The translations under genes were made by a program, and so were the position numbers. Below, in pieces: positions 3,115 through 28,675 of a stretch of 64,000 bases of DNA. The notes beneath the pieces are model-generated. The model was not told the origin of the DNA and searched no databases. It saw only the letters and a program-made list of their open reading frames with translations. Origin of the DNA: Bacteroides neonati. Lineage in GTDB: Bacteria > Bacteroidota > Bacteroidia > Bacteroidales > Bacteroidaceae. The stretch covers positions 1,096,316 through 1,160,315 of the forward strand of contig NZ_HG726020.1 in assembly GCF_000499785.1 (NCBI RefSeq), given 5' to 3'. Position 1 is the stretch's first letter. Each line of letters opens with the position of its first letter.

Positions 3115-3146
3115 GTGAGTTGTTAAAGCCCCTTTTGTTTATTGCC

Positions 3147-3154
3147 GAATTTTG
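3147..3154 (+). promoter_or_regulatory. -7 element of the xis2c-xis2d-orf3-exc operon
   Basis: GAATTTTG matches TAnnTTTG in 7 of 8 positions and lies 29 bp upstream of the xis2c ATG. There is no TTTG at the standard distance, which fits a promoter that needs the activator RteC. Confidence 0.5.
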
Positions 3155-3182
3155 TCGCAGAAACAAAAAGAAAGGACTGAAC

Positions 3183-3545: not shown

Positions 3546-3548
3546 GTC

Positions 3549-3899: not shown

Positions 3900-3919
3900 C
3901 CCATTAAAACATTTTTCAG

Positions 3920-5491
3920 ATGGCAAAGAAAAAAGACGAAAAGGACGTGCTGGTAGTCCGTGACGAGAAGACAGGCGAGATCAGCGTGGTAGCCGGGCTG
4001 AACGCGGACGGCACACCCAAGCGCACCCCCGCAAAAGCGGAGAACGCGCAGAGTTTCCTGCAATTCGACCGACATGGCGACGTGCTGGACAACTTCTTCA
4101 AGAACTTCTTCCGGCAGTGCAAGGAACCCAGCCGCTTCGGTTTCTACCGCATTGCGGCAGACCAAGCTGAAAATCTCTTAGAGGTGATGAAGCAACTGCT
4201 GAAAGACCCCGAAGCGAACAAGGAGCTGCTCGCCCCTCACAAGGTGGACACCTCCGACTATGAGAAGAAGGTGCAGGAAGAGATGGCAGCACAACAGACA
4301 GAGAAACAAGAACCTCAAAAACAGGAGAACATGGAACAACGGAAAGAACAGCAACAGGACAAATCCGAACAGATGCAGGGCAAACGTGGCTACCAGCCCA
4401 TCGACGAGAGTAAAATCAACTGGCAGGAGCTGGAGGACAGATGGGGCGTAAAGCGGGACAACCTTGAAAAGTCCGGCGACCTTACGAAGATGCTCAACTA
4501 TGGCAAGTCCGACTTGGTAAAGGTCAAACCGACCTTCGGCGGCGAATCATTCGAGCTGGACGCCCGCCTCTCCTTCAAGAAGGACGGTGAGGGAAACATC
4601 AGCCTCGTGCCGCACTTCATCCGCAAGGAGCAGAAGCTGGATGAGTACAAGGAACACAAATTCTCCGACAATGACCGGAAGAACCTCCGCGAAACGGGCA
4701 ATCTCGGTAGGGTCGTGGACATTGTGGACAGGGAAACGGGCGAGATCATCCCCTCCTACATCAGCATCGACCGCAAGACGAATGAAATCACGGACATTCC
4801 GGCAAGCAGGGTGCGCATCCCGGAGCGCATCGGCAAGACGGAAATCACCACGCAGGAGCGGGACATGCTCCGCGCCGGACTGCCCGTACGCGACAAGCTC
4901 ATCGAGCGCAACGACGGCAGAAAGTTCGTCACCACCCTGCAAGTGAACGTGGAGCAGCGCGGCGTGGAGTTCGTGCCGGGAACCGGCAAGTCGCCCCGTA
5001 CCGCACAGACACAGGAAACCAAAGGCGACACATCGAAAAGTCAGGCGCAGGGCGGGGAAAATGCCGCACAGACCAAGAAGGAGCAACGCCGCAACACGTG
5101 GACGAACGAGGACGGCAGCATCCGCCCCATCAGCAAATGGAGCGGCGTGAGCTTCACCGACCAGCAGAAAGCCGACTATGTGGCGGGTAAAGCCGTGAAG
5201 CTGGAGAACGTGACCGACAAGCAGGGCTTCCATGCCACGATGTATATCAAGTTCAACCCGGAGAAGGGACGCCCGTACCGCTACGACACGAACCCTGACA
5301 ATGCACAGCAGGTTGCTCCGTCCAACGAGAGCCGCACGCAGGTGGCGGTGAACAACGATGGCAAGACCAACGAGGCTACAAAGAATCTGAGAGAGCCGTT
5401 GCAGAAAGGTCAGACCAACCCGAAGGACGCCCGCCAGCAACAGCAGCAGGAGAAGCCGCAGAAGAAAACGGGCAAGGGCATGAAAATGTAA
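3920..5491 (+). CDS. Orf3 of the excision operon (DUF4099/DUF3945 protein)
   Basis: 523 residues. N-terminal DUF4099-like part (about 30-200, including INWQELEDRWGVKRDNLEKS) and DUF3945-like repeats further on (about 240-350 and 390-450, the second with PISKWSGVSFTDQQKADYVA). Gln/Lys/Glu-rich linkers occur at 115-155 and at the C-terminus (runs of Gln, then KKTGKGMKM). Proteins with this architecture are confined to Bacteroidetes mobile elements. In CTnDOT orf3 can be deleted without loss of excision, so its role is open. It lies between xis2d (20 bp) and exc (60 bp). Confidence 0.85.
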   Translation: MAKKKDEKDVLVVRDEKTGEISVVAGLNADGTPKRTPAKAENAQSFLQFDRHGDVLDNFFKNFFRQCKEPSRFGFYRIAADQAENLLEVMKQLLKDPEANKELLAPHKVDTSDYEKKVQEEMAAQQTEKQEPQKQENMEQRKEQQQDKSEQMQGKRGYQPIDESKINWQELEDRWGVKRDNLEKSGDLTKMLNYGKSDLVKVKPTFGGESFELDARLSFKKDGEGNISLVPHFIRKEQKLDEYKEHKFSDNDRKNLRETGNLGRVVDIVDRETGEIIPSYISIDRKTNEITDIPASRVRIPERIGKTEITTQERDMLRAGLPVRDKLIERNDGRKFVTTLQVNVEQRGVEFVPGTGKSPRTAQTQETKGDTSKSQAQGGENAAQTKKEQRRNTWTNEDGSIRPISKWSGVSFTDQQKADYVAGKAVKLENVTDKQGFHATMYIKFNPEKGRPYRYDTNPDNAQQVAPSNESRTQVAVNNDGKTNEATKNLREPLQKGQTNPKDARQQQQQEKPQKKTGKGMKM

Positions 5492-5551
5492 TCCCGTGTC
5501 CGCCACTGAATCCAAAATAAAATCCAAAGTATCAACAAAAAAGAAGAAGAC

Positions 5552-7639: not shown

Positions 7640-7642
7640 TAT

Positions 7643-7650
7643 TAACTTTG
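7643..7650 (+). promoter_or_regulatory. Exact -7 promoter element after exc
   Basis: TAACTTTG, an exact TAnnTTTG match four bases past the exc stop. TTTT at 7619-7622 is near the -33 spacing. Transcription would start near 7657 and run first into the hairpin at 7717-7746, then into the DUF1896 gene. Confidence 0.5.
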
Positions 7651-7716
7651 CCACTTGTTCAGAGTAATGAATTGTTCTTCGATACCGGATTACACTCATA
7701 CTTTGGATTTAGTGGT

Positions 7717-7746
7717 GGCACTCGGAGGGATACCGAGTGCCTTTTT
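7717..7746 (+). terminator. Strong hairpin terminator upstream of the DUF1896 gene
   Basis: GGCACTCGG agggata CCGAGTGCC followed by TTTTT: a perfect 9-bp stem and U-run. It can end exc transcription. Because an exact -7 element precedes it at 7643 it could also act as an attenuator in the leader of the DUF1896-helicase operon. Confidence 0.85.
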
Positions 7747-7780
7747 CTTCCTTTTTCCAACCGATTATCCCGTTAATTAT

Positions 7781-7803
7781 CAATCCGCTAAATCCAAAGT
7801 AAT
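7781..7803 (+). repeat. 23-bp leader repeat, copy 1 (before DUF1896 gene)
   Basis: These 23 bases, containing CCGCTAAATCCAAAGTA, are identical to the reverse complement of 30361-30383, directly before mobA. In both places a start codon follows immediately. The shorter core AATCCAAAGTA also precedes exc (5521) and traI (37170), and a variant with one extra A precedes traN (41146). See findings. Confidence 0.8.
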
Positions 7804-8254
7804 GAACAACAAGAAGAAAAACGAGGGTCAGACCGACTTTTCCTATTACGGTCTGTACCTGCTGGACTATCTCCGCACGAACAAGTTTGAACAGGCTGAC
7901 GACACCGCTTTCATACGGGAACGGGCCGACCGTGCCGCCGAAACGTATGAGAGGGCACGGCTTGAAGGCTATCCCGCCGATGGTGCGCAGGAACTGGCGA
8001 TGGACACGCTGCTGCGCGGGCTGCATTATTCCCGTTACGCCATCCTCCGCGAAGTCGTGGAAAACGAGTTTGCCGATGAAGTGCCGGAAGAGAAGCGTGA
8101 AGCCTTTGTCCTGAAACTGCTGCCGCTTGTCGGCAACGTGTTCTCCGTCTATGACCTCTCGGATGACAATTTCGCCCTGTCTTCCGATTACGACCTGCTC
8201 TACACGGAGCTGACGGGAGCAACCGTCCTTTACTTAGACGAATATGGCGTTTAA
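7802..8254 (+). CDS. DUF1896 family protein
   Basis: 150 residues from ATG 7802; the frame is open farther upstream but the 23-bp leader repeat marks this start. It is acidic and helical (for example [20 protein letters not shown]), without catalytic motifs. DUF1896 proteins are found almost only next to the large methylase-helicase gene of Bacteroidetes conjugative transposons. Here the two coding regions overlap by 11 bp, so translation is probably coupled and the products may act together. Function unknown. Confidence 0.82.
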
Positions 8255-11200
8255 CCGCAAACAGAAACTGCGGGACAACATCGAGGCGATACGGACGGCA
8301 TTCATCCTTGACAGGGAAAATAGGACAGCGACAACCGAAGAGCGTGCCATACTTCAAAGGTACTGCGGTTTCGGCGGTCTGAAATGTATCCTCAACCCTG
8401 CAAAGGAACTGACGGATGCCGTCCGGTGGGCGAAATCCGACCTCGAACTGTTCGCCCCGACGGTGGAGCTGCACAGGCTTATCCGTGAGAACAGCAAGGA
8501 CGAAACAGAGTACAAGCGGTTTGTGGATTCGCTGAAAGCGTCCGTGCTGACCGCTTTCTACACCCCCAAAGAGATAACCGACACCATCGCGGACGTGCTG
8601 GCAGATTACAGCGTCCGCCCCGCCCGTATGCTCGAACCGTCGGCAGGTGTCGGCGTGTTCGTGGATTCCATGCTGCGGCACAGCCCCAATGCGGATGTGA
8701 TGGCTTTCGAGAAGGATCTGCTCACGGGTACAATCTTGAGGCATCTCTATCCCGACCAGAAAATGCGCACCTGCGGTTTTGAGAAAATCGAAAGACCGTT
8801 CAACAATTATTTCGACTTGGCGGTGTCCAACATTCCGTTCGGTGACATTGCCGTGTTCGACGCGGAGTTTCAGCGGAGCGACTCTTTCGGCAGACGCTCC
8901 GCCCAGAAAACCATCCACAACTATTTCTTTCTCAAAGGACTGGATGCCGTGCGTGACGGCGGTATCGTGGCGTTCATCACCTCGCAAGGGGTATTGAATA
9001 GCACCAAGACCTCCGTGCGTAACGAGCTGTTCAGTCAGGCCAATCTGGTATCCGCGATACGCCTGCCCAACAACCTGTTCACGGACAACGCGGGCACGGA
9101 GGTGGGCAGTGACCTGATTGTCCTGCAAAAGAACCTCAGCAAGAAGGAAATGTCGCAGGACGAGCGGCTGATGACCGTGATACAGACGGACACGAAAACC
9201 GCCCTGACCGACAACGCCTATTTCATCCACCACCCGGAACGCATCGTGCATACGATGGCGAAACTTGACACAGACCCCTACGGGAAGCCCGCTATGGTTT
9301 ATCTGCACGAGGGCAAGGCAGCAGGCATCGCCGGGGATTTGCGCCGTATGCTCGACGAGGATTTCCATTACAGGCTTGCCATGCGCTTGTATTCGGGTTC
9401 AATCCGGCAGGCAGGAACGGAAGAAAAAGTTGCCGTTCAAAATAAAGTAGAGCGTCCTGCCATAAAATTGGAAACAGTATCCTCGGCGCAGACGGTGGAA
9501 ACTCCGACAGAAAAGCCGCAACCCGCAGATGAAAAGCCGGAGATAGAACCGCGCCCGCAATATTCCGCAGGCGTGCAGCTCACCCTGCTTGACCTCTGGG
9601 GGATGACGGAAGAGGTCAGCCAACCGAAAACCTCCAAAAAGAAAAAGACGGTGAAAAAGGCAGTTACGGCAAAGTCCACTCCGCCCAAACCGAAAGTCAC
9701 GGTTACACCGACAGCTCCAACTGCAAAACCCGCAATGGAGAATAAGGAGGTGAAAGCGGAGAACACCGCCAAGCCTGCCGACCCGGACGACATCTATGCC
9801 ACACTGGACTGGGATACCAATCCTCCCATCAACGGTTTCTATGAAATGATGATGGGTTTGACGCCGGAGCGTAGGAAAGAACTTCGGGAACTGGCAAGGC
9901 AGCATAACGAGAAACAAGTGGCGGAAAAGACGGAAGTGAAAGCCGTGCCGGAAACTTCCCGTGAGCAGCCACGACAGGAGGAAACACAGCCGGAGGCAGT
10001 CGCCGCACCTGCCGTTACAGATACCCCATCGGAAGCGGTGGGGACTTTCCTTTTCCCCGACATCGAAGCGGAAAAGCCGAAGGAGGAAGTCGTGGACCTT
10101 TCTCCGCGTGCCTACCACCGCACGCCGGAGATGCACCTGCGCGAAGGGTCGCTGGTGGCTGACCGGGGGCGTCATAACATCGGCTACCTGAAAGACATCA
10201 CGCCATACGGGGCGACATTCCAGCCGCTCGACCTGAAAGGATACCAGAAGGAAAAGGCGTTGTTGTATGTGTCGCTGCGTGACGCCTACGAGCGTCTGTA
10301 CCGTTATGAATCGCTCCGGCGCGAGGCAAATGTTCCGTGGCGAGAGCATCTGAATACCTGTTACGATGAGTTTGTCATGCGCTACGGCAACCTCAACGCC
10401 AAGCAGAACGTGAAGTTAGTGATGATGGATGCGGGCGGGCGCGACATCCTTTCGCTGGAACGGATGGAAAACGGAAAGTTCGTCAAGGCGGACATCTTCG
10501 AGCATCCTGTTTCCTTCGCGGTGGAGAGCCATGCCAACGTAGGCTCTCCCGAAGAAGCCCTGTCTGCGTCGCTCAACAAATATGGTACGGTCAATCTCGA
10601 CTATATGCGGGAGATAACCGACAGCACGGCGGAGGATTTGCTCACTGCCCTGCAAGGGCGCATCTACTACAATCCGCTCGTGACCGGTTACGAAATCAAA
10701 GACCGTTTCATCGCCGGAAATGTCATAGAGAAAGCGGAACGCATAGAGGCATGGATGGGTGACAATCCCGAAAATGAGCGTATGCCGGAGGTGAAGCAGG
10801 CGTTGGAGGCTCTGAAAGATGCCGAGCCGCAGCGCATCGCCTTCGAGGATCTGGACTTCAATTTCGGGGAACGCTGGATTCCGACGGGTGTCTATGCCGC
10901 CTACATGAGCCGGCTGTTCGACACGGAGGTGAAAATCGCCTATTCCGCAAGCATGGACGAGTTTTCGGTGGTGTGCGGCTACCGCACCATGAAAATCACG
11001 GACGAGTTTCTGGTGAAGGGGTATTACCGGAACTATGACGGTATGCACCTCCTAAAACACGCCCTGCACAACACCTGCCCTGACATGATGAAGTCCATCG
11101 GCAAGGACGAGCATGGCAACGACATCAAGATGCGCGACAGCGAGGGAATACAACTCGCCAACGCCAAGATTGACGAGATACGAAACGGCTTCTCCGAATG

Positions 11201-14060
11201 GCTCGAAGAGCAGTCGCCGCAGTTCAAGGAGCGGCTTGTGACGATGTATAACCGCAAGTTCAACTGTTTCGTGCGCCCGCGCTACGACGGCTCCCATCAG
11301 ACCTTTCCCGACCTCAACCTGAAAGGGCTGGCAAGCCGGGGTATCAAGAGCGTCTATCCCTCACAGATGGATTGCGTCTGGATGTTGAAACAGAACGGCG
11401 GCGGAATTTGCGACCACGAGGTGGGAACCGGTAAGACGCTGATAATGTGCATCGCCGCGCATGAGATGAAGCGTCTGAATTTGGCACACAAGCCGATGAT
11501 TATCGGGCTGAAAGCCAACGTTGCGGAGATTGCAGCCACCTATCAGGCGGCATATCCCAACGCACGTATTCTGTACGCTTCGGAGAAGGACTTTTCGACC
11601 GCCAACCGTGTGCGCTTCTTCAATAATATAAAGAACAACGACTACGATTGCGTCATCATGTCGCACGACCAGTTCGGCAAGATACCGCAGTCGCCGGAAT
11701 TGCAGCAGCGCATCCTGCAAGCAGAGCTTGACACGGTGGAGGAAAACCTCGAAGTGCTACGGCAGCAGGGAAAGAACGTGTCGCGGGCGATGCTGAAAGG
11801 ATTGGAGAAGCGCAAGCACAACCTTGAAGCGAAGCTGGAGAAGGTGGAACACGCCATAAAGTCACGCACGGACGACGTGGTGGATTTCAAGCAGATGGGC
11901 ATCGACCACATCTTCATAGATGAGAGCCACCAGTTCAAGAATCTGACTTTCAACACGCGCCACGACCGTGTGGCGGGATTGGGAAACAGCGAGGGAAGCC
12001 AGAAGGCACTTAACATGCTCTTTGCCATACGCACCATACAGGAGCGCACAGGAAAAGACTTGGGTGCGACCTTCCTCTCCGGCACGACTATCAGCAACTC
12101 ACTGACTGAATTGTACCTGCTGTTCAAGTACCTGCGCCCGAAGGAGCTGGAACGGCAGGACATAAGGTGTTTCGACGCTTGGGCGGCGATATTTGCCAAG
12201 AAGACGACGGATTTTGAATTTAACGTGACGAACAATGTGGTCCAGAAGGAGCGTTTCCGCTACTTCATCAAAGTGCCGGAGCTTGCCGCCTTCTATAATG
12301 AAATCACGGACTACCGCACGGCGGAGGATGTGGGCGTTGACCGTCCTGCCAAGAACGAGATACTGCACCATATACCGCCCACGCCGGAACAGGAGGACTT
12401 CATACAGAAACTGATGCAGTTCGCCAAGACGGGCGATGCCACCTTGTTGGGCAGGCTGCCGCTTTCGGAAACGGAAGAAAAGGCGAAGATGCTCATCGCC
12501 ACGGACTATGCCCGGAAAATGGCACTCGACATGCGCATGATAGACCCGAATTACGAAGATCATCCCGACAACAAAGCGAGTCACTGTGCCAAGATGATCG
12601 CGGAGTATTATCAAAAATACGACGCCCAGAAAGGCACGCAGTTCGTTTTCTCTGATTTGGGGACATACCAGCCGGGCGACGGGTGGAACGTCTATTCGGA
12701 AATCAAGCGCAAACTGACGGAGGACTACGGTATACCGCCAAGCGAGGTGCGCTTCATTCAGGAGTGCAAGACCGACAAGGCGCGGAAGGCGGTGATAGAC
12801 GCCATGAACGCCGGGACGGTGCGTGTGCTGTTCGGCTCTACCTCTATGCTCGGAACGGGTGTGAACGCCCAGAAACGGTGTGTGGCTATCCATCATCTCG
12901 ATACGCCGTGGCGACCGTCCGACTTGCAACAGCGTGACGGACGCGGAGTTAGGGCAGGTAATGAGATTGCCAAACATTTCGCCGGGAACAACGTGGATGT
13001 AATCATCTACGCGGTGGAGAAGTCACTGGACAGCTACAAGTTCAACCTCCTGCACTGCAAGCAGACTTTCATAAGCCAGCTCAAAAGCGGTGCGATGGGT
13101 GCGCGTACCATCGACGAGGGGGCAATGGACGAAAAATCGGGCATGAATTTCTCGGAATACATGGCGTTGCTCTCCGGCAATACCGACCTGTTGGACAAGG
13201 CGAAACTGGAAAAGCGGATCGCATCGCTCGAAGGGGAACGCAAGTCGTTCAACAAGGGCAAGCGTGATTCGGAGTTCAAGCTGGAGTCAAAGACCGGCGA
13301 GTTGCGCAACAACACGGCTTTCATAGATGCCATGACGGAGGACTGGAACCGCTTCCTGTCGGTGGTGCAGACCGACAAGGAGGGCAACCGCCTTAATATA
13401 ATAAAGGTGGACGGAGTGGATTCCGCCGATGAGAAGGTCATCGGAAAGCGTTTGCAGGAGATAGCCAAGAATGCCACGACCGGAGGGTTGTACACGCAGG
13501 TCGGTGAACTTTACGGTTTTCCGATAAAGGTGGTGAGCGAAAGGATACTCAAAGAGGGATTGGAGTTCACCGACAACCGCTTCGTGGTCGAGGGGAACTA
13601 CAAGTACACCTACAACAACGGGCATCTGGCGATGGCTGACCCGTTGGCCGCCGCCCGCAACTTCCTCAACGCGATGGAGAGGATACCCTCCATCATCGAC
13701 CAGTACAAGGCGAAGAACGAGGTGCTGGAGATGGAGATACCGCAGTTACAGGAGATAGCGGGTAAGGTGTGGAAGAAGGAGGACGAGCTGAAGCAGTTGA
13801 AGTCCGAACTTGCCGCCCTTGACCGAAAAATTCAGCTGGAGCTTGCGCCACCCACGCCCGAAGTCGCAGAAAAGGAGAATGAAGGGCAACAGCTCAAGCC
13901 GGAAGCGGAAGATGTGAGGAACAGGCAGGCGCAATATCCCGAAAATGCACCGCCGCAGATACGCAGTCCGGCGGATAGTATCGTTGCCAACCATGTCATA
14001 ATCGGGCGTCCGGGACTGTATGCCAAGGAGGAAACCCGGTCCAAAGGATTGAAAATATAA
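8244..14060 (+). CDS. Giant N6-methylase-fold / SNF2-helicase fusion, DarB-like
   Basis: 1938 residues. The N-terminal part has a Rossmann methyltransferase fold: motif [11 protein letters not shown] at 130-139 and motif IV as SNIPFG (N196), a variant of NPPF. Residues about 385-620 are a Pro/Lys/Glu-rich linker. The second half is a superfamily 2 helicase: Walker A VGTGKT with K1064, DESH at 1226-1229, a GTTISNS motif III, and motif [13 protein letters not shown] with arginines R1564 and R1567. Coiled coil follows (about 1640-1700 and 1810-1860). No nuclease or target-recognition domain is visible. The order methylase, linker, helicase resembles phage P1 DarB, which is packaged and protects DNA from type I restriction, so protection of the transferred strand in the recipient is a reasonable hypothesis. 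Single uninterrupted frame; the codon use matches the tra genes. Confidence 0.88.
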
Positions 14061-14603: not shown

Positions 14604-14706
14604 TAATATACATATTAATACGAGTTAGTAATCCTGTAGTTCTCATATGCTACGAGGAGGTATTAAAAGGTGCGTTTCGACAATGCATCTACTGTAGTAT
14701 ATTATT
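14602..14706 (+). promoter_or_regulatory. Translational attenuator (Hp1/Hp8 hairpin) of tetQ
   Basis: AATAATATAC at 14602-14611 pairs perfectly with GTATATTATT at 14697-14706. The loop between them is 85 bases, as reported for the Hp1-Hp8 hairpin of CTnDOT. The right arm lies just upstream of the tetQ ATG at 14718 and would hide its ribosome-binding region. Slowed translation of the leader peptide by tetracycline is thought to favour other pairings and open the tetQ start. Confidence 0.85.
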
Positions 14707-14717
14707 GCTTAATCCAA

Positions 14718-16643
14718 ATGAATATTATAAATTTAGGAATTCTTGCTCACATTGATGCAGGAAAAACTTCCGTAACCGAGAATCTGCTGTTTGCCAGTGG
14801 AGCAACGGAAAAGTGCGGCCGTGTGGATAATGGTGACACCATAACGGACTCTATGGATATAGAGAAACGTAGAGGAATTACTGTCCGGGCTTCTACGACA
14901 TCTATTATCTGGAATGGAGTGAAATGCAATATCATTGACACTCCGGGACACATGGATTTTATTGCGGAAGTGGAGCGGACATTCAAAATGCTTGATGGAG
15001 CAGTCCTCATCTTATCCGCAAAGGAAGGCATACAAGCGCAGACAAAGTTGCTGTTCAGTACTTTACAAAAGCTGCAAATCCCGACAATTATATTTATCAA
15101 TAAGATTGACCGTGCCGGTGTGAATTTGGAGCGTTTGTATATGGATATAAAAACAAATCTGTCGCAAGATGTCCTGTTTATGCAAACTGTTGTCGATGGA
15201 TCGGTTTATCCGGTTTGCTCCCAAACATATATAAAGGAAGAATACAAAGAATTTGTATGCAACCATGACGACGATATATTAGAACGATATTTGGCGGATA
15301 GCGAAATTTCACCGGCTGATTATTGGAATACGATAATCGCTCTTGTGGCAAAAGCCAAAGTCTATCCGGTGCTACATGGATCAGCAATGTTCAATATCGG
15401 TATCAATGAGTTGTTGGACGCCATTTCTTCTTTTATACTTCCTCCGGCATCAGTCTCAAACAGACTTTCAGCTTATCTCTATAAGATAGAGCATGACCCC
15501 AAAGGGCATAAAAGAAGTTTTCTTAAAATAATTGACGGAAGTCTGAGACTTCGAGACGTTGTAAGAATCAACGATTCGGAAAAATTCATCAAGATTAAAA
15601 ATCTAAAGACTATTTATCAGGGCAGAGAGATAAATGTTGATGAAGTGGGTGCCAATGATATCGCGATTGTAGAAGATATAGAAGATTTTCGAATCGGAGA
15701 TTATTTAGGTGCTAAACCTTGTTTGATTCAAGGATTATCTCATCAGCATCCCGCTCTCAAATCCTCCGTCCGGCCAAATAAGCCCGAAGAGAGAAGCAAG
15801 GTGATATCCGCTCTGAATACATTGTGGATTGAAGACCCGTCTTTGTCCTTTTCCATAAACTCATATAGTGATGAATTGGAAATCTCGTTATATGGTTTGA
15901 CCCAAAAGGAAATCATACAGACATTGCTGGAAGAACGATTTTCCGTAAAGGTCCATTTTGATGAGATCAAGACTATCTACAAAGAACGACCTATAAAAAA
16001 GGTCAATAAGATTATTCAGATCGAAGTACCACCCAACCCTTACTGGGCCACAATAGGGCTGACTCTTGAACCCTTACCGTTAGGGGCAGGGTTGCAAATC
16101 GAAAGTGACATCTCCTATGGTTATCTGAACCATTCTTTTCAAAATGCCGTTTTTGAAGGGATTCGTATGTCTTGCCAATCTGGTTTACATGGATGGGAAG
16201 TGACAGATCTGAAAGTAACTTTTACTCAAGCCGAGTATTATAGCCCGGTAAGTACACCTGCTGATTTCAGACAGCTGACCCCTTATGTCTTCAGGCTGGC
16301 TTTGCAACAGTCAGGTGTGGACATTCTCGAACCGATGCTCTGTTTTGAGTTGCAGATACCCCAAGTAGCGAGTTCCAAAGCTATTACAGATTTGCAAAAA
16401 CTGATGTCTGAGATTGAAGACATCAGTTGTAATAATGAGTGGTGTCATATTAAAGGGAAAGTTCCATTAAATACAAGTAAAGACTATGCCTCAGAAGTAA
16501 GTTCGTACACTAAGGGCTTAGGCATTTTTATGGTTAAGCCATGTGGGTATCAAATAACAAAAGACGGTTATTCTGATAATATCCGCATGAACGAAAAAGA
16601 TAAACTTTTATTCATGTTCCAAAAATCAATGTCATTAAAATAA
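14718..16643 (+). CDS. tetQ: Ribosomal protection protein TetQ (tetracycline resistance)
   Basis: 641 residues from ATG 14718; a GTG at 14670 behind AGGAGG would add 16 residues (the 657-residue annotation). It is an EF-G-like GTPase that removes tetracycline from the ribosome. G1 is AHIDAGKT (10-17), with the switch/G3 segment [10 protein letters not shown], and G4 FINKIDR. The EF-G domains II-V follow. First gene of the operon; its stop overlaps the rteA start by one base (TAATG), so rteA is translationally coupled. Base composition is more AT-rich than the flanking excision and tra genes, consistent with separate acquisition of this module. Confidence 0.98.
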
Positions 16644-21136: not shown

Positions 21137-21216
21137 ATTTTCTGCCGCGTTTTTTGCCAATTATATTCATGTGCGCACGCAGAAAACAAAGTGTAATTTT
21201 CAAAATTGACAGAACC

Positions 21217-21822
21217 ATGAATTATTTCTTGCTGGCGGAAACCGACTTTTTCCGCCTGATAAACGAAGCCGGCGACTGCAATATGGAAACGGCATACACG
21301 GCTTTCGCCACCCAAGTGATCGAACTGTGCAACGGCGGCATGGACATGAACCTTACCGTCATCGCGCTTGCCTACATCGAAATCGAGTTGCAGCACCATC
21401 CCGTACGTAATCTGTCAGAAGAAAAAAGAGAGATTGCCGCCTACGTCAGCAAGGCTCTGTCTTTCGTAAGAAAGATGCAGAAATTCCTTGCCACGCCCCA
21501 AGTGCCACCACTAATATCCGCCAACAACGCAACAGAAACCACCGCCAGCCTTCTTCAATGGACGGGCAATGCCATCGACCTCGTGGAACTTATCTACGGC
21601 ATAGACGTGATGGGCTGCATCAACAACGGCAATATGCCGCTCAAACAGCTCGCCCCACTTCTCTATAAGATATTCGGGGTTGATTCTAAAGACTGCTACC
21701 GCTTCTACACTGATATCAAACGCCGGAAGAACGAAAGCCGCACCTATTTCATTGACAGGATGCAGGAAAAACTGAACGAGAGAATGTTGCGTGATGAGGA
21801 GTTGGAGCGGATGAGAAAATAA
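21217..21822 (+). CDS. rteC: RteC, activator of the excision operon
   Basis: 201 residues from ATG 21217 (MNYFLLAETDFFRL). An in-frame ATG at 21169 would give 217 residues; neither start has a clear Shine-Dalgarno. The family has a helical N-terminal half and a C-terminal winged-helix DNA-binding part, here about residues 135-195 (LKQLAPLLYKIFGVD, then FYTDIKRRKNESRTYFIDRM). RteC is made under RteB control and binds inverted half sites upstream of xis2c; the 3100-3114 palindrome is the likely target. A terminator follows at 21845. Confidence 0.92.
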   Translation: MNYFLLAETDFFRLINEAGDCNMETAYTAFATQVIELCNGGMDMNLTVIALAYIEIELQHHPVRNLSEEKREIAAYVSKALSFVRKMQKFLATPQVPPLISANNATETTASLLQWTGNAIDLVELIYGIDVMGCINNGNMPLKQLAPLLYKIFGVDSKDCYRFYTDIKRRKNESRTYFIDRMQEKLNERMLRDEELERMRK

Positions 21823-21844
21823 AAAAATATCCATTACATATGAG

Positions 21845-21874
21845 AAGACAGGAATACTCGTATCCTGTCTTTTT
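21845..21874 (+). terminator. Terminator after rteC
   Basis: AAGACAGGA with TCCTGTCTT, extended inward by ATAC/GTAT (one bulge), followed by TTTTT. It begins 23 bp after the rteC stop. Confidence 0.85.
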
Positions 21875-22033
21875 ATTTTCATTTAATTATATATTAATTA
21901 GCACAATATATGTGAGTTTTTCATTCCTATAAGGACAAATTTCAGAAACGTATGTCTGGTAAATTATTGAGTCATCATAGTATGAACATATATCATTACT
22001 AAAAACAATGAAACAACTTCCATAAGATTGTGG
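21875..22033. other. AT-rich region downstream of rteC, where rteR is expected
   Basis: In CTnDOT a ~90-nt regulatory RNA, RteR, is encoded just downstream of rteC. I cannot identify it here with confidence. The stretch shares the 11-mer TCTGGTAAATT (21957-21967) with the structured RNA arm at 20392-20402. No protein-coding frame is convincing. Confidence 0.3.
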
Positions 22034-22086
22034 TTGTAAAAATCGCCATTTAATAGCCCGTTTTTTTTGTAAAATTCGCCAATTAA
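22034..22086 (+). repeat. Two 20-bp direct repeats upstream of the cargo operon
   Basis: TTGTAAAAATCGCCATTTAA (22034-22053) and TTGTAAAATTCGCCAATTAA (22067-22086) agree at 18 of 20 positions and are 33 bp apart, about three helical turns. The second copy covers the -33 position of the promoter whose -7 box is at 22098. Arrangement and placement suggest a regulator binding site controlling the cargo genes. Confidence 0.65.
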
Positions 22087-22097
22087 AAAAATATGAT

Positions 22098-22105
22098 TAT
22101 CTTTG
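22098..22105 (+). promoter_or_regulatory. -7 element of the cargo operon promoter
   Basis: TATCTTTG, an exact TAnnTTTG match, with TTCG at exactly 19 bp upstream as a weak -33. Start of transcription is predicted near 22112, 12 bp before the first ATG. Confidence 0.7.
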
Positions 22106-22123
22106 CATTATATTTTATAAGGT

Positions 22124-23254
22124 ATGGAAACAGTAAATAGAATACTTCAAGAGAAGATTACAGCACGAATCGCGCCCAATAAAGCAGTACTGATTTTTGG
22201 TGCTCGCCGTGTTGGTAAAACGGTAATGATGCGTAAAATTGTGGACAACTATTCAGGTAGGACGATGATGCTCAACGGCGAAGACTACGACACATTAGCA
22301 CTATTGGAGAATCGCTCAATAGCCAATTATCGGCATTTATTGGATGGTATTGATTTGCTGGCTATTGATGAGGCACAGAACATACCACAAATCGGTAGTA
22401 TTCTGAAGTTGATAGTTGATGAAATACCGGGAATAAGTGTCTTGGCAAGTGGTTCTTCGTCATTCGATTTGCTGAATAAGACTGGTGAACCGTTGGTCGG
22501 CCGCAGTACGCAATTTCTCCTTACACCATTCTCGCAACGGGAAATCGCACAGACGGAAACGGCACTTGAAACCCGCCAGAACCTCGAAGCGCGCTTGATT
22601 TACGGTTCCTATCCCGAAGTAGTAATGATGGAGAACTATGAACGTAAAACAGACTACCTACGTGATATTGTCGGTGCATACCTGCTTAAAGATATCTTAG
22701 CAATTGACGGCTTAAAAAATTCGAGCAAGATGCGCGATCTACTGCGATTGATAGCTTTTCAGTTGGGCAGCGAAGTTTCTTACGAAGAGTTAGGTAAACA
22801 ACTCGGCATGAGCAAGACGACCGTTGAAAAATACCTCGACCTATTGGAAAAGGTCTTCGTTATCTATCGTCTGGGGGCTTATTCGCGTAACCTACGCAAG
22901 GAGGTTACAAAAGCTGGCAAGTGGTACTTCTACGACAACGGCATTCGCAATGCCATTATCGGGGCTTTCTCACCGCTGGCCATTCGGCAGGATGTCGGTG
23001 CGCTGTGGGAGAACTACATCATCGGAGAGCGGCGCAAAGCGAACTTCAATGAGGGACTGCACAGGGAGTTCTATTTCTGGCGCACCTACGACAAACAGGA
23101 AATCGACCTGATTGAGGAGAGTGCCGACAGTCTTACCGCCTTGGAGTTCAAGTGGGGAAATAAAATGCCGGCCGCACCGAAAGCCTTCCAAGAAGCCTAT
23201 CCCTATGCCGAGTTTCATGTGGTAAATCGGGAGAATTATTTGGAGTTCGTATAA
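22124..23254 (+). CDS. AAA ATPase with DUF4143 nuclease-like C-terminus (cargo gene 1)
   Basis: 376 residues. Walker A GARRVGKT at 26-33, Walker B LLAIDEAQNIP near 78-88, and a sensor-type VLASGSSSFDLLNK segment (AAA_14). A helical and winged-helix section follows (YEELGKQLGMSKTTVEKYLD). The DUF4143 C-terminus ends with EIDLIEES ... ALEFKWG, which has the D...ExK spacing of PD-(D/E)xK nuclease folds. Such ATPases are abundant in bacteria and archaea but have no settled function; some accompany toxins or defence genes. The gene is 16 bp ahead of the KAP NTPase gene and shares its promoter. It is not part of the CTnDOT backbone as I know it. Confidence 0.85.
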   Translation: METVNRILQEKITARIAPNKAVLIFGARRVGKTVMMRKIVDNYSGRTMMLNGEDYDTLALLENRSIANYRHLLDGIDLLAIDEAQNIPQIGSILKLIVDEIPGISVLASGSSSFDLLNKTGEPLVGRSTQFLLTPFSQREIAQTETALETRQNLEARLIYGSYPEVVMMENYERKTDYLRDIVGAYLLKDILAIDGLKNSSKMRDLLRLIAFQLGSEVSYEELGKQLGMSKTTVEKYLDLLEKVFVIYRLGAYSRNLRKEVTKAGKWYFYDNGIRNAIIGAFSPLAIRQDVGALWENYIIGERRKANFNEGLHREFYFWRTYDKQEIDLIEESADSLTALEFKWGNKMPAAPKAFQEAYPYAEFHVVNRENYLEFV

Positions 23255-23270
23255 TCAATAAATTACGTAT

Positions 23271-26200
23271 ATGGAAACAAAACTACAATCCAAACAGCAA
23301 TATCCGCGGTTTATCCAAAATAAACCGTGTGGTATTGACAAATTCGATGGAGGTTCGCAAGAAAGGTTGGCAAAAACTATTGCTCGCCATTTTTGTCAGA
23401 ATGATTCATTGGATGAGGAATGTACTTTACCTCGAATTATCGGCATCGAAGGTATTTGGGGATCTGGAAAATCCAACGTGGTTAAAATGTTGGAACGTGA
23501 ATTATCAGACGACTATTACTTTTTTGAGTATGACGCATGGGGACATCAAGAGGACTTGCAACGCCGCTCTATATTGGAATTGCTTACAAGCAAACTTATT
23601 GATGATGGTATCCTATCTGGAAATGCAACAATAAAAGTCAAAGGTGGAGGTACGAAAACCGTATCATGGTCTGAAAAGCTGAAATATTTATTAGCCCGTA
23701 AAACGGAGACCGTAACCGAAAAATATCCCCTTATCAGTAATGGTATGGTTGCGGCATTTTTGGTTGCAGTTTTAACTCCGATATTTACATTTATTGCGTA
23801 TGCAGTAAAACCTACACCCACAACATGGTGGTTTTCTTTATTGTCTATTATCATAGCTGCACTGCCAGTTCTTATTGCATTGTGCGTTTGGAAATGGGCA
23901 TATAGCAAAGATCATAAATATGGATGGAGTTATATGTTAGCTATTTATCAAGATAAAGTCGAAAAGGACGTTTGCTATGAGACTTTGAGCGAAGACGAAC
24001 CAACGGTTTACGAGTTCAAAACATGGATGCAAGACATTTCTGATTTTATCAAGGAAAAAGGACAACGTAAATTAGTCCTTGTTTTTGACAACATGGATCG
24101 TCTCCCCGCTGAAAAAGTAAAAGAATTATGGTCTTCTATCCATACGTTCTTCGCCGATAGCGGTTTTGAAAATGTTTGGGCTGTTATTCCTTTCGATGAA
24201 ACACATTTAGCTTGTGCATTCGGAGATGAGACCGACGAACAAACGAAACAACTGACCAAGTATTTTATCAATAAAACTTTCCCTATTGTTTATCGTGTTG
24301 CTCCTCCTGTTATTACCGACTATCGAAGTATATTCAACAAACTGTTTGTTGAAGCATTTGGAGAAACAGAAAATGAAGCGAAAGAAACTATAAATCGGAT
24401 ATTCAGATTGGTAAATCCTAATGCCAATGTTAGGGAAATTATATCATATATCAATGAGATGGTCGCTCTTAAACAAGAGTGGTGTAACGAAATTTTGATG
24501 ATAAACATAGCATTGTTCTGTTTGAAGAAGACGGATATTCTGGCAAATCCAGTAGAACAAATATTGTCCGGCGACTATCTGAATGGCATTCAAACAATAA
24601 TTAACAATGATCTGCAAACACAACGCGAAATTGCAGCTTTGGTATATGGTGTCGATGTTGAAGATGCTCGACAAATTCCATTGAAAAAATATATTGAAGG
24701 CTGCATCAACGGAGAAGAAGACCACGACATAAATCAATATGCAGAGACTAATAAACAATTTGACACTGTATTAGAAGAAGTTATACAATGTATGGACAAT
24801 GCGCTTATCGATAAGATTATACATTGTTTGCATAAATTAACTCGAAAGAGCGATGTTATTCTGCGTGTATGGCAAAGAATAGCACAATTGAAATTAAAAG
24901 AATCCATAGAGAAGCAGGTGTTCCCTGTCGAATACCAAGAACTGCTGTTGCATTTAGACACGGAAAGCCAAAACCATGTGATTGCTCAATTATATAAGAA
25001 GATAGTTCGGTTCAATGACTTCAATGGCGGCGACTATTTCAAAACGTTAGATGCAATAGACAGGTTTATTGCGCAAAATAAGTTGGCGTGCGATTTTACG
25101 TCATTGATTGAAGCAAAAACAGTCAAGCCAAATACATTTATCGATTATATTCAAGCTGCAAATGCAACAGATGCTGCCTATCGGGATAACGCGACAACTA
25201 AAGCATATAAATATTATCAAGTAGCAACAAATTCGGAGGCGCTCGATAATTATTTGGCAAACTTACTACCCGATAATTTCGACCATGCAGATATTGTAAA
25301 AACGTTAAAAGATAATTCTACCTATACGTTTCCAACGCTTTTGCAAGCGATCACGAATTGCATTGATGAACAGAATGTAAATAAAGATAATATAGGGGCT
25401 ATATTTACAACCTATCGTTTATTGGCATCTGACGAAGAAAGACCTTTACCTGTAACGTTAGATTCAACCTACATAAATCAGTTGCATTCTGAATTAGAAA
25501 CTGATGGCCGAAACATTAAAGAGTCTGGATATTACGATTTAGTCGCCATGCAATTGGCACATGGTCATTCCGTTTCCTTAATAGAGGGTGGAGATATAAA
25601 ATATGTTGCAGAACTCATGGACTATTATGTGGATCATGGAGACTTATTAGTAAATAGTGTGGGATGGAATATACCGCTATTAAATGAAACACTACAATAC
25701 ATGGTAAATCATAAACTTGGCTATAAATTATTGCTCTCAGACATATTGCCCCAATTTGAAGATATTAAGAACAGAATAGGTGTAACGGATGAGGTATTTA
25801 TCGAGCATTTAGCAGAGTGGAATACCGATTTGGATAAGTATATCACTAAGAACAATATTAAAGATGTAATTCCTGACGCATCTTTTTACGATTTGACCAC
25901 TAAAATAAGCAATGTCCTGACCGATCATATCAATAAAATAGCGTTCGAAGCGTTGTCTGAAATAAGTGTTGATACATTATACGCCCAAAGAACAGCACAT
26001 ACATCATATTATTGGTTTGTCGCAATAAAACATTTACTGGCTAAAATCAAATCCTTGCCAGATAACTTGACTGAATTTGGCAAAAAGATTCTGATGGATA
26101 TTGCTTCTGGAACTCAAAGTTTGAATCCTTTCCCTAATTGTTTCAAGAATATAGTTGAAAGATTGGATAAACGAAAAATTAAATCGACAGTTACCGATAT

Positions 26201-26525
26201 AAGAAATGATTTCTGCATCGGTAAAAAGACTATCAATGCAATAAAGTTTCAATTTTTCGAAACATGGCTTAGATCGCATGGTAATTTGAAAAGTCAAGCT
26301 GGAGACGTTATTGATAAAATAGTGAAACCTGTAATTTCCGATGGGGCATGCCGTTCATTGATTCTGCAAAACAAAGATTTTTATATGGATTTAATAAATA
26401 CAGCAGGGGATGATGCTTATGAATTGAAAAAGAGTCTCCGAAACCTCATACAAAAAGATTCAGATCCGCAATTGGTTAAATTTGTCAATTCGATAGATTC
26501 AGTACCTGAGGTTGAAACCGCGTAA
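23271..26525 (+). CDS. Membrane-anchored KAP-type P-loop NTPase (cargo gene 2)
   Basis: 1084 residues. Walker A GIWGSGKS at 61-68 and Walker B LVLVFDNMD at 268-276. Between them lie two transmembrane helices (about 158-179 and 186-208), the hallmark insertion of the KAP family. After the NTPase domain, from about 420 on, the protein is a long helical region without known motifs, possibly a sensor or scaffold. KAP NTPases include PifA of plasmid F, which aborts phage T7 infection, and many are found in mobile islands. The gene is clearly richer in A+T than the flanking mob and excision genes, a sign of separate acquisition. A role in phage exclusion or another membrane-linked response is inference. 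Confidence 0.85.
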   Translation: METKLQSKQQYPRFIQNKPCGIDKFDGGSQERLAKTIARHFCQNDSLDEECTLPRIIGIEGIWGSGKSNVVKMLERELSDDYYFFEYDAWGHQEDLQRRSILELLTSKLIDDGILSGNATIKVKGGGTKTVSWSEKLKYLLARKTETVTEKYPLISNGMVAAFLVAVLTPIFTFIAYAVKPTPTTWWFSLLSIIIAALPVLIALCVWKWAYSKDHKYGWSYMLAIYQDKVEKDVCYETLSEDEPTVYEFKTWMQDISDFIKEKGQRKLVLVFDNMDRLPAEKVKELWSSIHTFFADSGFENVWAVIPFDETHLACAFGDETDEQTKQLTKYFINKTFPIVYRVAPPVITDYRSIFNKLFVEAFGETENEAKETINRIFRLVNPNANVREIISYINEMVALKQEWCNEILMINIALFCLKKTDILANPVEQILSGDYLNGIQTIINNDLQTQREIAALVYGVDVEDARQIPLKKYIEGCINGEEDHDINQYAETNKQFDTVLEEVIQCMDNALIDKIIHCLHKLTRKSDVILRVWQRIAQLKLKESIEKQVFPVEYQELLLHLDTESQNHVIAQLYKKIVRFNDFNGGDYFKTLDAIDRFIAQNKLACDFTSLIEAKTVKPNTFIDYIQAANATDAAYRDNATTKAYKYYQVATNSEALDNYLANLLPDNFDHADIVKTLKDNSTYTFPTLLQAITNCIDEQNVNKDNIGAIFTTYRLLASDEERPLPVTLDSTYINQLHSELETDGRNIKESGYYDLVAMQLAHGHSVSLIEGGDIKYVAELMDYYVDHGDLLVNSVGWNIPLLNETLQYMVNHKLGYKLLLSDILPQFEDIKNRIGVTDEVFIEHLAEWNTDLDKYITKNNIKDVIPDASFYDLTTKISNVLTDHINKIAFEALSEISVDTLYAQRTAHTSYYWFVAIKHLLAKIKSLPDNLTEFGKKILMDIASGTQSLNPFPNCFKNIVERLDKRKIKSTVTDIRNDFCIGKKTINAIKFQFFETWLRSHGNLKSQAGDVIDKIVKPVISDGACRSLILQNKDFYMDLINTAGDDAYELKKSLRNLIQKDSDPQLVKFVNSIDSVPEVETA

Positions 26526-26530
26526 GTATT

Positions 26531-26663
26531 TGTCTAACAAGTCCGAATTTTACGATTTTACCCGTCAGAACTGAAGTGCCCCCCAAAAAAATTGTATCCA
26601 ACTTTTGGGGGTCACTTCAAACTTCGATAGGGATAATTTTCAATTTTGGGGACTTGTTAGACA
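26531..26663. repeat. 14-bp inverted repeat enclosing the IS-like remnant, overlapping the mobC end
   Basis: TGTCTAACAAGTCC (26531-26544) and GGACTTGTTAGACA (26650-26663) are perfect complements. The right arm contains the mobC stop codon. It was probably an intercistronic stem whose loop was later invaded by the 48-bp element. Confidence 0.75.
26572..26619. mobile_element. 48-bp palindromic IS3-type miniature element
   Basis: It begins TGAAGTGCCCCCCAAAA and ends with TTTTGGGGGTCACTTCA, complementary apart from one position in the stem, with almost no interior. It is flanked by AAC on both sides (26569-26571, 26620-26622), a 3-bp target duplication. The end sequence, read TGAAGTGACCCCCAAAAGTT, resembles termini of IS150-group IS3 elements. 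Interpreted as two IS ends joined after near-complete internal deletion. Confidence 0.65.
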
Positions 26664-28675
26664 GTCTCATTATCTGGTAGCAGTTTACACAGCACCGGAT
26701 CGTTTTTGATACGCTCCAGTTCCTCCTGCACAATCTGCTTCACCTCTTCCTTGATGCGCCGGTAGTTCGCCTGCACCGTTTCCTTCATGCGGTCGTTGCC
26801 GTCCTCGTCCGTGAAGTTTGTAATGACGGGAATTTTCTTGTAGGCACTTTCTTCCCGTTTCACCTTTTCGGCATCCACCACAATCTCGCAATGAAAAATC
26901 TTCTGCTCGATACGCTCGTTGAAGTTGTCGGATACAGAACCGACAAACATTCCCTGCGTAAGCCCGGAAATCTTACTCGGTGGAATGAGCGCGTCCATCT
27001 GCGTGTTGATGGAGGTGGAAACATCCTGCCGGTTGATGGAGATGGACTGCCGTTTCTGCAACACCTTACCGAACCGCTCGGAGAGCGTCTTGGCTGTTTC
27101 CCCCACCACCTGACCGGAGAAAATATTGCCGACAGTGTTCATCACCACTTTCGCCTCTTTGTCCCCGTAGTCACGCACTAACTGGCTGAAATCCTGAAAG
27201 CCCAGACACACGGCAACCTTGTTGCTTCGGGCGGTAGCTATAAGATTGTCCAACCCTTTGAAGTATATTGTGGGCAACTCGTCGATGATGACCGATGACT
27301 TCAGCATCCCCTTCTTGTTGATGAGCTTCACGATACGGGAATTATACAGACCGAGTGCCGCACCGTAGATATTCTGACGGTCGGGATTGTTACCCACGCA
27401 GAGGATTTTCGGCTCTTCGGGATTGTTGATGTCCAGCGTAAACTCGCTGTCTGACATCACCCAGTAGAGCTGCGGTGAAATCATCCTCGAAAGCGGGATT
27501 TTTGCCGACGCTATCTGACCCATGAGCTGCTCCGCAGCCCCTCCAAGCCACGCATCCATGAACGGCGAAAGGTAGTTCTCCAGCTCCGGATAAGAGGTCA
27601 GTATCGGAAATATATCCTCGTAACGGCGGTTCAGAAACTCGATAGCATGGGGAAACGTGCAAAACTTCCCGTTCTGATAGATTTTGAGATACCAGATAAT
27701 ACTGGCAAACAGAATGATAGGTGACTCCACGAAGAAGTCGCCCTGCTTTTGCACCCACGTTTTATTGAGGTTGAGCATTATTGTGTAGGCACTCTCATAG
27801 GCATCCGTAATATCTTCCATAAAATCCGGGTGAATGGGATTGCACCGATGAGAGCGTCGCGGGTCGTCGAAGTTGATCACATAGAACTTCGGCTTTACCT
27901 TGTAGCCGTCCGGGTGGTTCAGCAAATGGTTGTAGGCAATAGTAGATAGGTCGGGATACTTGAAATCGTAGATGTATTGACTAAAGCCCTTTTCAATCTG
28001 TTGCTTGATAAAATTGTTTACCACGGCATAGGACTTGCCGCTGCCCGGCGTACCCAACACGATGGACGCACGGAAGGGATTAACTACATTGATCCAACCG
28101 TTGTTCCAGCGTTTCCTGTAATAGAAACGTGTCGGCAGATTGACCGAATACTCGCTTTCGATAAGCCTCGTTTCCTGCATGAAACTCTCGTTCTCGTTGT
28201 TGAAAACATCCTCCATCAAATTGTGTTTCAACAGGCGGCTCATCCACAGACCACCCATCAACAGGCAGACATAGCCCGTTCCAATGGTAAGGACATACAG
28301 TCCCGTCACCGCTTCAAGCGGCAGCGGCAGGGGCAGCAACCACCAGTTCAGGAAAAACAGCACGAACCCGACGGCAAATGCTGTCCAGATTCTCCCCCAA
28401 GTGATTTTCTCACCCTTGACACCCTTCGTACCCAGACAGGACAAGGCAAGCAAAAGGACGGAAAACAGCTTCGTGTAGAGAATGGAATGGAACAGCCCCG
28501 CCGTGCGGTCGAAGTTCAGAAGGATTTTGTCCACCACGCCGATGTTCACGCCCCACAGCCGGATGGCTTCGTAGCAGAACCAGTACACGTTCATGACCAC
28601 TAAAATGATACTCACGGCACGCAGAAAATCCATGATTTTCGCCAATGCCCTCAAATCGTCTTCTTGTTGTGACAT
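26657..28675 (-). CDS. mobC: MobC, VirD4/TraG-type coupling protein
   Basis: 672 residues. Hydrophobic N-terminal part with transmembrane segments (about 14-32, 66-82, 96-112, 122-143), the YWFCYEA segment common in Bacteroidetes coupling proteins, Walker A GTPGSGKS at 208-215 and Walker B SVIIDELPTIYF. It links the relaxosome to the mating channel and powers DNA export. The start at 28675 has a GTATCAAC-type leader upstream. Last gene of the minus-strand mobABC operon; its stop lies within an inverted repeat. Confidence 0.94.
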   Translation of the reverse strand: MSQQEDDLRALAKIMDFLRAVSIILVVMNVYWFCYEAIRLWGVNIGVVDKILLNFDRTAGLFHSILYTKLFSVLLLALSCLGTKGVKGEKITWGRIWTAFAVGFVLFFLNWWLLPLPLPLEAVTGLYVLTIGTGYVCLLMGGLWMSRLLKHNLMEDVFNNENESFMQETRLIESEYSVNLPTRFYYRKRWNNGWINVVNPFRASIVLGTPGSGKSYAVVNNFIKQQIEKGFSQYIYDFKYPDLSTIAYNHLLNHPDGYKVKPKFYVINFDDPRRSHRCNPIHPDFMEDITDAYESAYTIMLNLNKTWVQKQGDFFVESPIILFASIIWYLKIYQNGKFCTFPHAIEFLNRRYEDIFPILTSYPELENYLSPFMDAWLGGAAEQLMGQIASAKIPLSRMISPQLYWVMSDSEFTLDINNPEEPKILCVGNNPDRQNIYGAALGLYNSRIVKLINKKGMLKSSVIIDELPTIYFKGLDNLIATARSNKVAVCLGFQDFSQLVRDYGDKEAKVVMNTVGNIFSGQVVGETAKTLSERFGKVLQKRQSISINRQDVSTSINTQMDALIPPSKISGLTQGMFVGSVSDNFNERIEQKIFHCEIVVDAEKVKREESAYKKIPVITNFTDEDGNDRMKETVQANYRRIKEEVKQIVQEELERIKNDPVLCKLLPDNETV

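Follow-up and report, generated by a model that had tools for sequence, protein, structure and literature searches.

What two genes between rteC and mobC of a Bacteroides mobile element do, and whether they do it together, is the question raised by a stretch of DNA from Bacteroides neonati (contig NZ_HG726020.1, positions 1,096,316 to 1,160,315; 64,000 nucleotides, called the window below and used for all coordinates). The genes encode a DUF4143 ATPase and a KAP NTPase, and an earlier note on this DNA had read them as a two-component NTPase system for defence or exclusion, carried as cargo by an integrative and conjugative element (ICE) and driven by its own repeat-controlled promoter. Our comparisons support the cargo and argue against the two-component system, since each of the two genes appears to be a part of its own that can be swapped, and the pair does not look like a fixed machine made of two parts. 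We lean, by a little over even chances, towards the reading that the operon is one allele of a defence-type slot, in which a self-regulating DUF4143 leader would precede a stand-alone KAP effector resembling the anti-phage protein Tmn.

Organization of the operon and its host element

The DUF4143 gene (22124-23254) and the KAP gene (23271-26525) were called as Open Reading Frames (ORFs) on the plus strand, with a gap of 16 bp. Pfam and NCBIfam matches confirmed both ORFs and their flanks, so that the compact operon of the earlier note stands: rteC (21154-21822; Pfam RteC) lies on one side and mobC (26657-28675, minus strand; NCBIfam Bacteroid_MobC, 1123 bits against a cut-off of 900) on the other. 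The KAP gene is AT-richer than its surroundings, as had also been noted, with a GC content of 0.361 compared with 0.463 for the DUF4143 gene, 0.481 for rteC and 0.502 for mobC. Upstream of the operon, directly before two-component regulator genes, lies Tet(Q) at 14670-16643, which codes for ribosomal protection and scores 1519 bits against an NCBIfam cut-off of 1425. We therefore regard the host as a tetracycline-resistance ICE, of the CTnDOT type by its MobC, MobB and RteC matches.

A modular cargo slot between rteC and mobC

When the KAP protein served as query for a pattern-based scan across 84,980 species genomes, 40 loci emerged, 38 of which had 100% identity over the best segment. In the near-identical loci with enough DNA the order rteC-DUF4143-KAP-mobC is kept, save for insertions and for one locus (L060) that breaks off inside KAP. 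In the family sample the KAP gene occurs at 99-100% DNA identity in 13 of 399 genomes, leaving out a 27-base match in G393, and a mobC relative is present in 39 of the 151 genomes of a further family sample. The near-identical copies of the operon represent one recently spread element, so the co-occurrence of the two genes in them is uninformative on function.

We read the stretches beyond mobC in 32 of the places listed; in 21 of them a match to rteC made the interval readable, and the 11 without a recognised rteC were left out. Only 4 of the 21 (L119-L122) contain DUF4143 and KAP as in the window, and 2 (L103 and L123) contain a DUF4143 gene of 96% identity followed by the Gabija genes gajA and gajB instead; a third ICE with DUF4143 and Gabija (L161) came from a separate search. 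The Gabija genes behind this same DUF4143 match gajA and gajB with E 6e-189 and 2e-298. The remaining slots hold a distant DUF4143 (26% identity; L129), SocA/Panacea-type genes (2 of 21; L099 by Pfam and L100 by identical ORF starts and lengths), a GNAT gene (L101), SLFN/AlbA genes (2 of 21; L102 by Pfam and L106 by eye), Abi_2/AbiD genes (2 of 21; L105 and L107), DUF1016/YhcG (L109), NYN (L110) and one ORF outside the family scans (L113), while 4 of 21 (L104, L108, L112 and L117) are empty, with 20-98 bp between the rteC and mobC matches. The slot thus holds at least seven cargo types besides DUF4143 with KAP and DUF4143 with Gabija, AbiD-like genes and further types known from defence or from toxin-antitoxin systems among them, and the expectation that the operon is ICE cargo in a defence context was borne out.

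The limits of the slot (21823..26708, from the end of rteC to the last mobC codons) are given by the breakpoints of DNA homology together with the differing contents. Homology to the window ends at 21821-21836 for six other ICEs and at 23264, just past the DUF4143 stop, for the three Gabija ICEs, and it resumes at 26708-26709, inside the mobC end, for all nine ICEs and for L131. This last locus shares window positions 23251-26498, i.e., the KAP gene, and carries an AbiEii gene in front of KAP in place of DUF4143. The breakpoints in the Gabija ICEs and in L131 indicate that cargo is exchanged at gene ends, on either side of KAP. In L103 the first possible start of the gajA ORF overlaps the DUF4143 end, and the next methionine lies about 20 bp past DUF4143. 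L046 shows this slot in an older state, with 98% identity in DUF4143 and 87% in KAP.

These data bear directly on the proposal of a true two-component system, in which DUF4143 would sense or cut DNA, KAP would act at the membrane and both would be needed for defence. The shared operon with its 16-bp gap speaks for it, and so do the losses found in both genes among near-identical copies and the persistence of a diverged pair in L046 (98%/87%) and, outside this ICE, in L061 (DUF4143 93%, KAP 79%). An obligate pair as the leading explanation was nevertheless rejected on account of the exchange of KAP for Gabija, by adjacency in just one of the 15 diverged KAP loci and by solitary DUF4143 genes elsewhere, and the two genes also differ strongly in constraint, with dN/dS against L046 of 0.03 for DUF4143 versus 0.16 for KAP. 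We consider the two-component system unlikely, at roughly one chance in five in our judgement.

An origin from phages was rejected as well. Viral contigs gave one KAP locus (L131, with a mobC remnant) and no match to a single DUF4143 query, and the alignment query found one distant DUF4143 (L221).

Several loci show rearrangements of their own. In L060, a Segatella copri contig, the operon of the window type is cut short, and behind it comes another rteB-rteC-mobC set, which is diverged. The L038 contig carries the ICE under the label of an Actinomycetota metagenome-assembled genome, either by binning error or by transfer. L024 has an insertion of about 1.8 kb within DUF4143 (flanking matches overlap by 8 bp), and L045 has one of about 1.6 kb in the stretch that separates rteC from the promoter of the operon (overlap of 5 bp). 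An insertion of about 2.4 kb lies in mobC of L027. For L029 and L052 the match to mobC ends at one and the same codon, 308, which is also where the contig ends or nearly ends, and this suggests a recurrent insertion site.

Relatives of KAP and DUF4143 outside the slot

To figure out in which company the KAP gene occurs elsewhere, we examined 15 loci with diverged relatives of at most 79% identity (L061-L066, L068, L131, L251-L254 and L285-L287), leaving out weak matches (L016-L019) and a C-terminal-only match (L067). It turned out that a defence-family gene adjoins or lies near KAP in 9 of the 15. The neighbours are a DUF4143 gene in L061, two HEC-06-like genes in L065, PDC-S73 in L066, a methyltransferase with AbiH in L068 and AbiEii in L131. 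In L063, from genome G059 of the same genus, PtuA/PtuB-like Septu genes are directly followed by a KAP relative that is broken. The KAP neighbours in L285 are type III methyltransferase and restriction genes together with SLFN, those in L286 are type I methyltransferase and specificity genes about 1.1 kb away, and those in L287 are GmrSD/HNH and an EcoRI-type methylase. L068 is the weakest of the relatives and is not recovered by the KAP profile; without it, the count is 8 of 14. As for the other six, the upstream neighbour in L062 has no match, L251 has DUF4238, L254 has an AAA_15 gene 3.3 kb away, L252 has a caspase-domain gene, and L064 and L253 were outside the scan. L252 is also peculiar in its layout (2931-11434), a same-strand row in which the caspase-domain gene stands four genes upstream of KAP, followed by three ORFs without Pfam match and KAP itself split in two ORFs.

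A DUF4143 profile built from 21 sequences matches beside KAP in only 1 of the 15 diverged loci, L061. It misses the distant PDC-S01 gene that PADLOC matched in L065, upstream of KAP by about 5 kb, and may likewise miss distant types of DUF4143 elsewhere. The 17-kb stretch that holds the pair in L061 contains neither rteC nor mobC, and its DNA homology starts at the repeats; DUF4143 and KAP have thus moved as a unit at least once. The check on co-occurrence suggested with the two-component proposal does not support it, although diverged pairs exist in L061 and L046.

At E 0.001, DUF4143 relatives occur in 307 of 393 genomes of the order sample, often several per genome, and those of 57-91% identity (19 loci, L162-L180) are mostly solitary among chromosomal genes, only 2 of the 19 (L174 and L180) having a same-strand ORF within 50 bp behind DUF4143. 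In L174 (4531-7191) two ORFs follow DUF4143, the first with a NACHT domain at its N terminus and the second with pentapeptide repeats, and the two are perhaps one broken STAND gene. In 20 further loci (L222-L241) no same-strand ORF of at least 70 aa starts within 50 bp (0 of 20), the nearest gaps being 60 and 64 bp.

Operator-like tandem repeats and the putative helix-turn-helix of the leader protein

The promoter of the operon contains two operator-like repeats on the plus strand, at 22034..22053 and 22067..22086, both with the core CGCCA and with starts 33 bp apart. They had been described as 20-bp direct repeats 33 bp apart, and they are real with the right spacing, but imperfect, since 18 of 20 positions are identical. 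Behind them, the -7 promoter box TATCTTTG (22098..22105, plus strand) fits TAnnTTTG, the Bacteroides -7 consensus; the box had been called correctly. The repeats are not among the 20 families listed by a general repeat search of the window. With zero mismatches, the operator motif occurs only in its two promoter copies in the whole 5-Mb genome, and at three mismatches there are four more genomic places versus nine for the control, i.e., no excess. This uniqueness, together with a similar layout at DUF4143 promoters elsewhere, indicates that the repeats are more than chance.

The layout was examined in three sets of DUF4143 promoters, namely set A (19 loci, L162-L180, exploratory, as the repeats were first spotted by eye there and in some others), set B (40 other loci, L181-L220, chosen by identity among the matches listed) and a later set of 30 loci (26 from a search across the class Bacteroidia and 4 from an order-wide search). 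L307 (too short) and L288-L290 (which are G105, the window and G388) were left out, and the sets are not fully independent, as L294 is the same place as L189, and L153 and L155 are near relatives of L177. The best 20-base self-match has a lag of exactly 32 bp in 12 of 19 loci of set A, 21 of 40 of set B and 27 of 30 of the later set, against an expectation of 1 in 41 for equal lags. A match of at least 15/20 at lags 31-33 occurs in 13 of 40 set B promoters versus 5 of 90 upstream regions of other ORFs in set A loci. With lags 28-40 and the same threshold, set B has 14 of 40 versus 1.75% of shuffles and set A has 12 of 19 versus 3.0%. The window, L046, L103 and L123 have their best lag at 33 (15-18/20), and the match in L061 is weak (12/20). 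Many of the repeat units form dyads, for example GTCA-n6-TGAC or TTCA-n6-TGAA, and lie upstream of the -7 box. The tandem repeats at the promoter were rightly noticed; judging from these comparisons, though, they are a trait of the DUF4143 family, many of whose genes in the class Bacteroidia have tandem dyads with a 32-bp period just upstream, and not of the DUF4143 and KAP pair.

What is more, the repeats covary with the leader protein. Its putative helix-turn-helix (residues ~220-241; 22781..22846, plus strand), recognised by this covariation and by an HTH_11 match of E 2e-4 that lies below Pfam's own cut-off, has a recognition helix starting with S-K-T-T at residues 230-233. Among 94 genes, 45 were scoreable, the other 49 having no perfect dyad of either kind or another helix start. 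In 44 of the 45, a helix start S-K-x-T goes with the dyad core GTCA and S-R-x-T with TTCA, the exception being L181. The first 30 genes were those on which the rule had been written (29 of 30), and the later 15 were scored by the unchanged rule (15 of 15). The window clade (S-K-T-T, 7 loci) has the core CGCCA, twice in 5 loci and once in 2. Shared ancestry reduces the weight of this fit. The simplest reading of the repeats and the helix is that each DUF4143 protein may regulate its own promoter and any gene behind it. The wider proposal, to which we give even chances, is that DUF4143/PDC-S01 proteins are self-addressed regulators, each with a private tandem operator of two dyads 32 bp apart whose core changes with the recognition helix, and that mobile elements use the gene as a plug-in, self-regulated leader for different effectors such as KAP and Gabija.

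Could the operon instead serve the ICE itself, for example by excluding a second ICE or controlling transfer? Its place, with a regulatory gene (rteC) on one side and a transfer gene (mobC) on the other, would suit such a role, and so would the membrane helices of KAP. The exact operator motif, however, is absent from the rest of the window, 4 of 21 loci have nothing in the slot and most of the others have unrelated genes there, and KAP relatives stand beside restriction-modification genes, so we regard this explanation as improbable, the least favoured of those considered here.

Selection and gene loss

Over long times KAP is under purifying selection, with dN/dS of 0.16 against L046 and 0.13 against L061 and with the first 430 residues more constrained than the rest; for DUF4143, dN/dS is 0.02-0.03 where measurable (L046 and L103). 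In the near-identical set (39 loci, L021-L060 without L046, which was left out as diverged), 7 of 34 complete KAP genes contain a nonsense or frameshift mutation, from six distinct events, one of them found in two loci. Among DUF4143 genes, disruptions affect 3 of the 37 that are complete. The KAP gene of L044 was counted as broken because of a frameshift found by base-by-base comparison and by translation of the copy L275 from the same genome. Intact copies identical to the window include eight from the family sample (L263-L270) and one from the plasmid collection (L262); the plasmid copy L261, whose sequence differs from that of the window towards the end of KAP, shortly before the record stops, was not counted. 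In the KAP copy of L273, which is not part of the substitution or disruption statistics, the Walker A glycine is changed.

Distinct substitutions, synonymous to nonsynonymous, were 1:11 in KAP and DUF4143 versus 4:2 in rteB, rteC, mobC and mobB (Fisher p 0.022), with 13 rteB differences in L038 (8 synonymous and 5 not, within about 36 bp) left out as one event. Under a codon-based expectation, neither the synonymous deficit in the cargo genes (p 0.17) nor the nonsense excess (p 0.095) was significant. Of 12 disruptive events, 9 fall in the two cargo genes (p 0.038), and for indels alone the count of 6 of 8 was not significant (p 0.09). KAP looks like a gene kept in the long term yet often lost after transfer, a pattern that would fit a costly, abortive-infection-like effector.

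The same losses are relevant to a toxin-antitoxin or addiction module, by which KAP would poison cells losing the ICE and DUF4143 would hold KAP down. An autoregulated-looking promoter, a KAP gene that is often broken, and SocA/Panacea-type and Abi-type genes in the slot of other ICEs speak for such a module. In L023, L024 and L029, however, DUF4143 is broken while KAP is intact, which is unexpected for a sole antitoxin, with the reservation that polar effects could silence KAP. The sizes and families of the two proteins are also unlike those of known toxin-antitoxin pairs. We hold this module to be rather unlikely, a shade more so than the two-component system.

Proposed mechanism and points against it

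In the reading that we favour, the DUF4143 ATPase would bind the tandem operators in its own promoter through the helix-turn-helix and would set the expression of itself and of the gene behind it, which is KAP here and Gabija in other ICEs. KAP would be a membrane NTPase that resembles Tmn and works by itself, and its long, variable half would act as the sensor. During infection a trigger would be read, probably by this variable C-terminal half, and NTP-dependent assembly of KAP at the membrane would then stop the cell or block the phage. The cost of KAP is proposed as the reason for its frequent loss after transfer.

Several points weigh against this reading. Among the neighbours scanned, no recognised defence gene lies near KAP in 6 of the 15 diverged loci, and the count of 9 of 15 with one stands without a random-gene control. 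Lag 32 is also best in 7 of 90 control upstream regions where about 2 are expected, some of which may belong to other DUF4143 genes. The repeats of the window clade lack the perfect dyad present in the other groups. On a tree built without the helix columns, five independent contrasts on well-supported branches gave four that agree, none that oppose and one unchanged (sign test p 0.125), and autorepression, as opposed to activation, is a guess. Besides, the excess of losses is modest (Fisher p 0.02; binomial p 0.04 to 0.17), and draft-genome errors may account for some single-base indels. Finally, the window KAP has no Tmn-named PADLOC match at E <= 0.1, the presence of a Tmn model in that library being unconfirmed.

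Features of the two proteins and other parts of the window

The leader gene (22124..23254, plus strand) encodes 376 aa and matches DUF4143 (E 7e-44) and AAA_14 (E 2e-25) in Pfam, and the PADLOC model of PDC-S01, PDLC04789, covers the whole protein (residues 4-376, E 1.3e-154). Its P-loop GARRVGKT (residues 26-33; 22199..22222, plus strand) has G26, R28, G31 and K32 invariant in 21 of 21 sequences. The PD-(D/E)xK-like tail of the earlier note is seen as a motif only, D328 ... E341-x-K343 (23105..23152, plus strand), with the three residues invariant in 21 of 21; the ATPase assignment holds, and the fold is not confirmed, as a structure predicted from three sequences was too poor (mean pLDDT 38). 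Through these D-E-K residues, DUF4143 may also cut DNA.

KAP (23271..26525, plus strand; 1084 aa), our proposed membrane effector, matches KAP_NTPase over residues 46-398 (E 1e-18, 67.7 bits, cut-off 20), and hydropathy gives two hydrophobic stretches at residues ~153-181 and 183-212, in agreement with the claimed NTPase with two membrane helices. This pair (residues ~153-212; 23727..23906) lies within the NTPase domain, as do Walker A GIWGSGKS (residues 61-68; 23451..23474), where W63 to N69 are invariant in 6 of 6, and the Walker B region VFDNMD (residues ~269-276; 24075..24098), where D273-P279 are invariant in 6 of 6, all on the plus strand. The structure predicted from the single sequence had a mean pLDDT of 42, so that the suggested structural check failed for both proteins, and searches of PDB sequences gave nothing useful.

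The convergent 3' region of KAP and mobC (26531..26663) contains a perfect 14-bp inverted repeat (26531-26544 and 26650-26663), one arm of which overlaps the mobC stop, around a hairpin at 26572-26619; this is probably a two-way terminator, a simpler explanation than a recombination site. Rfam had no match in the window at gathering scores, and a sigma-70 scan found 19 promoter-like sites versus 17.1 in shuffles, about equal. Another ORF of the window, 49564-55353 (1929 residues), has no NCBIfam match at E 0.001.

Significance

The element is found nearly unchanged across many Bacteroidota species, together with tetracycline resistance, and because of this wide spread the function of its cargo bears on the phage sensitivity of gut bacteria. 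PDC-S01 is described as the fourth commonest defence across prokaryotes (PMC12988326), and a code by which operator and helix could be read from each other would open a direct way of approaching it. A literature search by title and start of abstract found no description of the DUF4143 and KAP pair, of the slot or of the operator code.

Comparison with known systems

The known system closest to KAP by description is Tmn, a tested anti-phage gene. Its product is a P-loop NTPase of the KAP family that spans the membrane with two segments, and its mechanism is said to be unexplored (PMC11846954). The window KAP shares this architecture and differs in its long C-terminal half and in the upstream DUF4143 gene. 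QatA of QatABCD also has a KAP NTPase domain and gives a weak N-terminal PADLOC match (E 6e-12); the NCBIfam QatA score, however, is 27.4 bits against a cut-off of 600, and the operon lacks QatB, QatC and QatD, with no further long same-strand ORF from KAP to the mobC end. PifA of the F plasmid, which excludes T7, matches the N-terminal part over 48 residues only (E 4e-7). The leader gene resembles PDC-S01, a PADLOC phage-defence candidate with AAA and DUF4143, over its whole length. PDC-S01 genes are described as single-gene candidates, validation being pending for most PDCs (PMC12988326), and the available excerpt of that source mentions neither a self-operator nor use as an operon leader. 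In Gabija, GajA and GajB belong to protein families different from KAP and form a complete system by themselves, and in L103, L123 and L161 they stand where KAP stands here, downstream of the same DUF4143, an exchange behind one leader gene that shows ICEs trading defence modules.

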